Positions 4,555 to 8,580 of a stretch of DNA of 64,000 nucleotides are shown here, one piece after another (position 1 is the stretch's first letter; every line of letters starts with the position of its first letter). The DNA lies in NCBI RefSeq assembly GCF_011492945.1, contig NZ_CP045119.1:1178001-1242000 (forward strand), given 5' to 3'. The notes below the pieces were generated by a model that saw only the letters and a list, made by a program, of their open reading frames with translations, was not told where the DNA came from and searched no databases. The DNA comes from Rubrobacter tropicus (GTDB lineage: Bacteria; Actinomycetota; Rubrobacteria; Rubrobacterales; Rubrobacteraceae). A program made the translations under genes and the position numbers.

Positions 4555-5037
4555 ATGACCCGGGGACGGCCTTACGGCCCCGCCATCGCCACGGCCCAGA
4601 AGTGGGCCACGAAGCTGCATTCTTCCCTCTACCGGACCACGAACGGCAGGGTCGGCGGCCGGATGGTCGGCAGCCCCGTGCTTCTGCTCGTCACGACCGG
4701 CCGCCGGAGCGGGCTGCGGCGGACGACGCCGCTTCTCTACCTCGAAGACGGCGGCCGGTACGCTATCGTCGCCTCCAACGGCGGCGCCCCGAAGCACCCC
4801 GACTGGTGGCTCAACCTCGGGGCGAACCCGGAGGCGGCCGTCGAGGTCGGTGGGCGCGAGATCCGCGTCCGCGCCACGGAGGCCGTGGGCGAAGAGAAGC
4901 GGCGGCTGTGGAAGCGGCTCGTCGAGATGTACCCGAGCTACGCGAGCTACCAGGCGAAGACGGACCGGGAGATCCCGGTGATCCTCCTCGAACCCATCGA
5001 ACAAGGCACCCGAAACCCACGAAAGGAGCCGGCATGA
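4555..5037 (+). CDS. F420-dependent (Ddn-type) nitroreductase-family oxidoreductase
   Basis: A 160-residue protein of the deazaflavin-dependent DDN family (formerly DUF385), a split beta-barrel fold that uses coenzyme F420H2. Characteristic segments are VLLLVTTGRRSGLRRTTPL, the ASNGGAPKHPDWWLNL core and the NPEAAVEVGG strand. Relatives reduce quinones, nitro groups or other electrophiles; the substrate here is not predictable. It is tightly linked to the ABC exporter upstream, and its TGA overlaps the ATG of the rhodanese gene (ATGA). An export pump beside a reductase is consistent with a detoxification unit, but that is inference. Confidence 0.9.
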   Translation: MTRGRPYGPAIATAQKWATKLHSSLYRTTNGRVGGRMVGSPVLLLVTTGRRSGLRRTTPLLYLEDGGRYAIVASNGGAPKHPDWWLNLGANPEAAVEVGGREIRVRATEAVGEEKRRLWKRLVEMYPSYASYQAKTDREIPVILLEPIEQGTRNPRKEPA

Positions 5038-5354
5038 AAACCATAGACCGCGAGGAACTGAAGGCGAAGCTGGACCGCGGGGACGATCTCTTGCTCCTGG
5101 AGGTGCTCGGCGAGGCCTCGTACGGGCAGGGGCACCTGCCCGGCGCGGTCCGTTACGAGGGGCGGGGTCAGGTTGAGGGTCTGGTTCAGGACCGGAGCGC
5201 CGAGGTCGTGGCCTACTGCTCGAACTTCAACTGACACTCCTCGACGCGGGTCGTCCGTGAGCTGACGGCCATGGGTTACGACAACGTCTCCGACTACGAG
5301 GGCGGCAAGCAGGACTGGATCGAGGCCGGCCTCCCGGTCGAAACGGGGAGTTGA
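5034..5354 (+). pseudogene. Rhodanese-domain protein interrupted by an in-frame TGA (nonsense mutation or selenocysteine)
   Basis: ATG 5034 overlaps the previous stop and is preceded by AAAGGAG. The frame encodes a rhodanese: N-terminal LLLLEVLGEASYGQGHLPGA, then VVAYC with the catalytic Cys. At TGA 5232-5234, right after the peptide SNFN, translation would stop at 66 residues. The same frame continues without break to TGA 5354 as HSSTRVVRELTAMGYDNV then SDYEGG and EAGLPVE, exactly the C-terminal half of a rhodanese. The TGA occupies the second position of the C-x4-C loop seen in many relatives, so TGC to TGA is one substitution away. A small stem CGAC/GTCG lies a few bases downstream, but it is weak evidence for a SECIS element. 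Confidence 0.7.
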
Positions 5355-8489: not shown

Positions 8490-8580
8490 GGAGAGGTGTC
8501 CGAGTTGGCCGAAGGAGCGCGATTGGAAATCGCGTAGGCGGTGTTAAGCCGTCTCGAGGGTTCGAATCCCTCCCTCTCCG
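8490..8580 (+). tRNA. tRNA-Ser (anticodon GGA)
   Basis: A 91-nt class II tRNA. The acceptor stem GGAGAGG (8490-8496) pairs with CCTCTCC (8573-8579), with discriminator G. The D-arm is GAGTTGGCCGAAGGAGC, the anticodon loop ATTGGAAAT gives GGA, a long variable arm GGCGGTGTTAAGCCGTC follows, and the T-arm is GGGTTCGAATCCC. CCA is not encoded. Serine identity fits the long variable arm and the anticodon. Confidence 0.97.

Follow-up and report, generated by a model that had tools for sequence, protein, structure and literature searches.

A rhodanese of Rubrobacter tropicus with a Cys/Sec pair in its active-site loop, very probably encoded through an in-frame UGA

Rubrobacter tropicus very probably encodes a rhodanese in which selenocysteine (Sec) occupies the last position of the active-site loop. 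The gene lies in a stretch of 64,000 nucleotides (the window) of the 4.58-Mb genome, and comparisons at the sequence level strongly favor decoding of the UGA at 5232-5234 as Sec by the organism's own SelA, SelB, tRNA-Sec and SelD, assisted by a hairpin behind the codon. We regard the gene as a selenoprotein gene because the TGA is conserved, the machinery is present, the hairpin covaries and the second half of the protein is under selection.

The gene is read in a single frame from 5034 to the TGA at 5352-5354, with only one internal TGA (Table 1). A preliminary description of this DNA had placed both rhodanese halves in one frame around the internal TGA, and one Pfam rhodanese domain (PF00581) indeed spans both, covering residues 6-97 with 48 bits against a cut-off of 22.2. 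It had also located the TGA at the second Cys position of the active-site loop, which agrees with our reading: the TGA forms codon 67, which lies five positions beyond Cys62 and is the sixth place of the loop (C62-x4-U67). Likewise, the ATGA coupling it reported was found, as the ATG at 5034-5036 overlaps the stop of the upstream ORF (4555-5037); through this overlap the upstream quinone reductase family gene is translationally coupled to the rhodanese gene. ABC transporter genes flank the locus on both sides, and the region upstream of the rhodanese shows synteny with G061 and G084, two genomes of another genus. Default gene calling would cut the rhodanese gene short at the TGA.

Table 1. Coordinates of the features at the rhodanese locus, as positions in the window
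Feature	Position	Strand	Basis or details
Upstream gene, F420H(2)-dependent quinone reductase family (PF04075)	4555..5037	+	Pfam, 162 bits
Sec-containing rhodanese gene (very probable)	5034..5354	+	106 codons plus stop; ORF reading and Pfam
Codon of Cys62, which opens the active-site loop and is the expected catalytic Cys	5217..5219	+	Alignment and model
In-frame TGA, very probably read as selenocysteine 67 (C-x4-U)	5232..5234	+	TGA/Cys codon comparison
Likely bacterial SECIS hairpin	5250..5269	+	Arm 5250-5255, loop 5256-5263 (CGTGAGCT), arm 5264-5269
Terminal TGA stop	5352..5354	+	Frame reading

The TGA is one base away from TGC, the codon that many homologues have at this position, and the preliminary description had considered a fresh nonsense mutation. 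The orthologues contradict this, as they also carry the TGA. Within the genus, a TGA orthologue was found in 8 of 9 genomes. The family has an unbroken one in 22 of 39 genomes, or in 23 of 39 when a frameshifted copy in G008 is included, and in these 23 loci, which cross genera, the TGA stands at the same codon. Eleven Acidobacteriota loci (6 named and 5 more) also carry TGA copies. In a sample of 297 Acidobacteriota genomes, 9 had a match, and every match contained one TGA; 3 are longer proteins and 6 are short rhodaneses, among them that of the query genome itself. A mutation confined to one isolate, or a sequencing error, is extremely improbable, given that the same TGA recurs across the family and also in Acidobacteriota, together with a conserved hairpin and with purifying selection behind the codon. 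At the TGA position, a Cys codon stands in each of the 14 Cys homologues examined. In a tree of 50 rows, with L137 left out, the 22 Rubrobacteraceae Sec rows form one clade (96/93); at deeper nodes the branching of Sec and Cys groups is weakly supported.

Some loci depart from this pattern. In the G008 copy (L028) the reading frame shifts between residues 43 and 47, through an error or recent damage; the TGA and hairpin of this copy are intact. In G003, the ninth genome of the genus, the TGA orthologue is replaced by two near-identical rhodanese-CBS proteins with C-x4-U and an in-frame TGA (L023 and L029); the CBS domains were detected by Pfam in L029, and L023 looks alike. A second, more distant Sec rhodanese subfamily with the same hairpin is represented in the family by L137 (G138) and L139 (G320). 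One locus, L138 (G293), has one TGA, one TAG and no readable motif, and was excluded from all counts. A plasmid search with the rhodanese protein gave 8 records, all of them covering less than 80% of the query.

The genome harbors the genes for Sec synthesis and insertion. The selA gene (492.5 bits) overlaps at its end with selB (314.5 bits), and directly after selB lies a tRNA-Sec gene (65.6 bits) with anticodon UCA. The selD gene (L127, G000:C1:2796833-2797756; 352.5 bits) has an in-frame TGA near its start and therefore probably encodes a selenoprotein itself. The preliminary description had proposed looking for selA, selB, selD and tRNA-Sec and comparing orthologues for TGC or TGA; with all four present, and with TGA kept in the family and in Acidobacteriota, the Sec-containing sulfurtransferase that it held possible is backed by both machinery and codon. 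In the window, positions 8490-8579 (+) gave a weak match to the tRNA-Sec model (33.2 bits, below the cut-off), and this element is probably a different tRNA whose variable arm is long.

Among the 39 family genomes, selB exceeded the cut-off in 29 and tRNA-Sec was found in 29. Both are present in all 13 of the 25 TGA-bearing genomes that are rated at least 90% complete. The other 12, rated below 90%, have selB in 3 and tRNA-Sec in 5, and in 7 (G002, G004, G005, G338, G394, G283 and G347) both were below the cut-off. This share, 7 of 12, exceeds what completeness values of 75-88% would lead one to expect, and it counts against the selenocysteine reading. Four incomplete family genomes that lack the TGA gene (G356, G329, G293 and G372) all have selB and tRNA-Sec. 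Of the 6 named Acidobacteriota genomes that carry a TGA copy, 5 have selB above the cut-off and one, G399, has none.

Since TGA means stop by default, and since some relatives apparently lack the Sec machinery, the codon might be a real stop, serving programmed termination or yielding a short functional product of 66 residues. However, the frame behind the TGA is open, the 20 codons that follow the hairpin give a dN/dS of 0.29, which indicates purifying selection on this part, and the alignment shows invariant DW and G residues; in addition, the structure model predicts that a 66-residue product would miss the last part of the fold. A real stop is thus very improbable. Readthrough by itself does not identify the inserted residue, and a code change or a suppressor tRNA could in principle supply another amino acid. 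This is equally improbable, given a tRNA-Sec with UCA anticodon beside selA, selB and selD, homologues with Cys at the position, and the gene's own terminal TGA, which acts as a stop.

The selenocysteine reading gains further from the RNA behind the codon. RNAalifold, applied to 30 TGA sequences, returned one hairpin of 7 pairs, the seventh being 5249/5270. Its 6-bp core lies 16-35 nt after the TGA, where positions 16-21 pair with 30-35. These inner six pairs are complete in 29 of the 30 TGA genes, with compensatory changes; at one pair, UA occurs 14 times, CG 14 times and UG twice. A codon-sampling null that kept the peptides (3000 draws), and that treats the sequences without regard to their relatedness, gave a mean of 5.06 and a maximum of 13 of 30. 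Hairpin cells were paired in 99.4%, against at most 77.8% when the partner register was slid. The hairpin was kept in all six held-out loci (L137, L145-L149) and in none of the 14 Cys homologues, the best of which had 4 of 6 pairs. It is also absent from the same place in both rhodanese-CBS proteins, which form 3 of the 6 pairs, and in two fusions with a channel-like domain, L150 (2) and L151 (3). Single-sequence minimum-energy folds differ from the hairpin in 6 of the 30 sequences (L010, L011, L013, L059, L066 and L123). Synonymous differences among 22 sequences were 0.19 in the 12 codons after the TGA, compared with 0.56 in the 30 before it and 0.44 in the 20 after, and the Rubrobacteraceae DNA just behind the TGA is thus nearly frozen.

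A covariance model of the hairpin, run on the genome, found the rhodanese gene as the sole credible match, with 72.1 bits; the next match, at 27.1 bits, contains an out-of-frame TGA. Two other genome matches of this model were discarded: in L154 the TGA is out of frame, and L155 has no TGA at the match. Rfam, run on four TGA loci, found no family at the TGA site. The portion of PMC1088965 available to us describes the bacterial SECIS as a stem-loop that closely follows the TGA and has a loop guanosine. The element at 5250-5269 has 6 bp that covary and the loop CGUGAGCU, which makes it a likely SECIS candidate. The preliminary description had pointed to a CGAC-GCGG-GTCG stem just downstream of the TGA and distrusted it as a SECIS. 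This stem exists (5242-5253) and overlaps the conserved hairpin, whose site is a few bases further on; the distrust was justified, as the stem is not conserved, with 81.7% of cells paired and two of its four pairs each broken in 11 of 30 sequences.

The structure model of the protein is a rhodanese (pLDDT 88.1) with rhodanese matches in the PDB. In the model, strand 57-61 leads into a loop, residues 62-67, which is followed by helix 69-80. Its position right behind the strand makes Cys62 the residue expected to be catalytic; Sec67 closes the loop. Both are invariant in a 31-row alignment, in which Sec was written as Cys. Judged by its sequence, the gene product is a single-domain rhodanese with a predicted Cys62/Sec67 pair in the active-site loop. 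In the syntenic G084 orthologue (L140/L071) Cys is replaced by Ala and Sec by Asp (YAENLRD), and selB and tRNA-Sec are still present. This joint loss, a single case outside the counts, suggests that Cys62 and Sec67 work as a pair.

The protein is most likely a persulfide-handling Cys/Sec enzyme. In the route that we propose, to which we give roughly an even chance, Cys62 would take up sulfane sulfur as a persulfide, the neighboring Sec67 selenolate would attack this persulfide to give a selenenyl-sulfide plus H2S or transferred sulfur, and a cellular thiol would then reduce the Cys62/Sec67 pair; by this route the protein would act as an oxidoreductase on persulfides and not as a classical one-Cys thiosulfate sulfurtransferase. 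In general chemistry Sec is a more nucleophilic partner than Cys, and a bovine-type rhodanese reportedly can bind selenium, as a reference title has it. Sec67 might itself take up and pass on sulfane sulfur or selenium (for example selenium to SelD), with Cys62 as the resolving residue. This chemistry is possible but less likely: Cys62 is found where the loop canonically begins, behind the strand, and within the window no gene link between the rhodanese and selD was seen.

Sec rhodaneses are already known as a kind. Five forms (UxxS, UxxG, CxU, UxxG and UxxxxU) are given in the part of a 2026 review available to us (PMC13188914), where several motifs in the table start from Sec and C-x4-U is not among the five. 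A literature search for 'CxxxxU' gave no match among the papers covered. Form 1 of that table (UxxS, WP_010941598.1) is likewise a rhodanese with one Sec, and Ser stands at the third position behind that Sec. The window protein reads U-H-S-S, which fits UxxS, and form 1, compared here by its motif, may use the same loop position as Sec67. TsoB (NF045694, UxxxxU), a rhodanese/DsbD fusion-like protein, resembles the window protein at the motif level in having two chalcogen residues separated by four others, but it has two Sec and a long fusion, whereas the window protein combines a Cys with a downstream Sec and is not fused; model NF045694 gave 35 bits on the window protein, below its cut-off of 805. 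The best NCBIfam match of the window protein was rhodanese_LYCAU, form 3 (NF041203), with 48.2 bits, below the cut-off of 115, and the spacing there is CxU as opposed to C-x4-U. BH2092 of Bacillus halodurans (PDB 3nhv and 3o3w) has the same fold (TM 0.85-0.88 for 3nhv) at 18-20% identity; by sequence alignment its loop is C-x4-C, with Cys where the window protein has Sec. Rubrobacter xylanophilus had already been credited with five selenoproteins in 2006, according to the section of PMC1794560 available to us.

Three Acidobacteriota loci (L151:1474-2691, L152:304-1551 and L150) encode a C-x4-U rhodanese with an in-frame TGA fused to a potassium-channel-like domain. Pfam identified Ion_trans_2 (PF07885) in L151 and L152, and in L150 the domain was recognized by eye from its SIGYGD filter. 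Strong stem-loops follow the TGA in these fusions, with a shape unlike that in the window. The rhodaneses with C-x4-U in Rubrobacteraceae and Acidobacteriota, in which Sec would take the second and resolving place of the loop, may form a subfamily outside the published inventories, whose module, where fused to K-channel or CBS domains, could act as a persulfide or redox sensor for its partners; we offer this tentatively, and somewhat against the balance of probability. With this finding, Rubrobacteraceae and Acidobacteriota gain a well-supported selenoprotein whose likely SECIS is named. Furthermore, the natural Cys/Sec pair in a rhodanese loop lets one ask what role a second chalcogen plays in persulfide chemistry, and the question can be put directly because the same family offers natural controls in its C-x4-C homologues.
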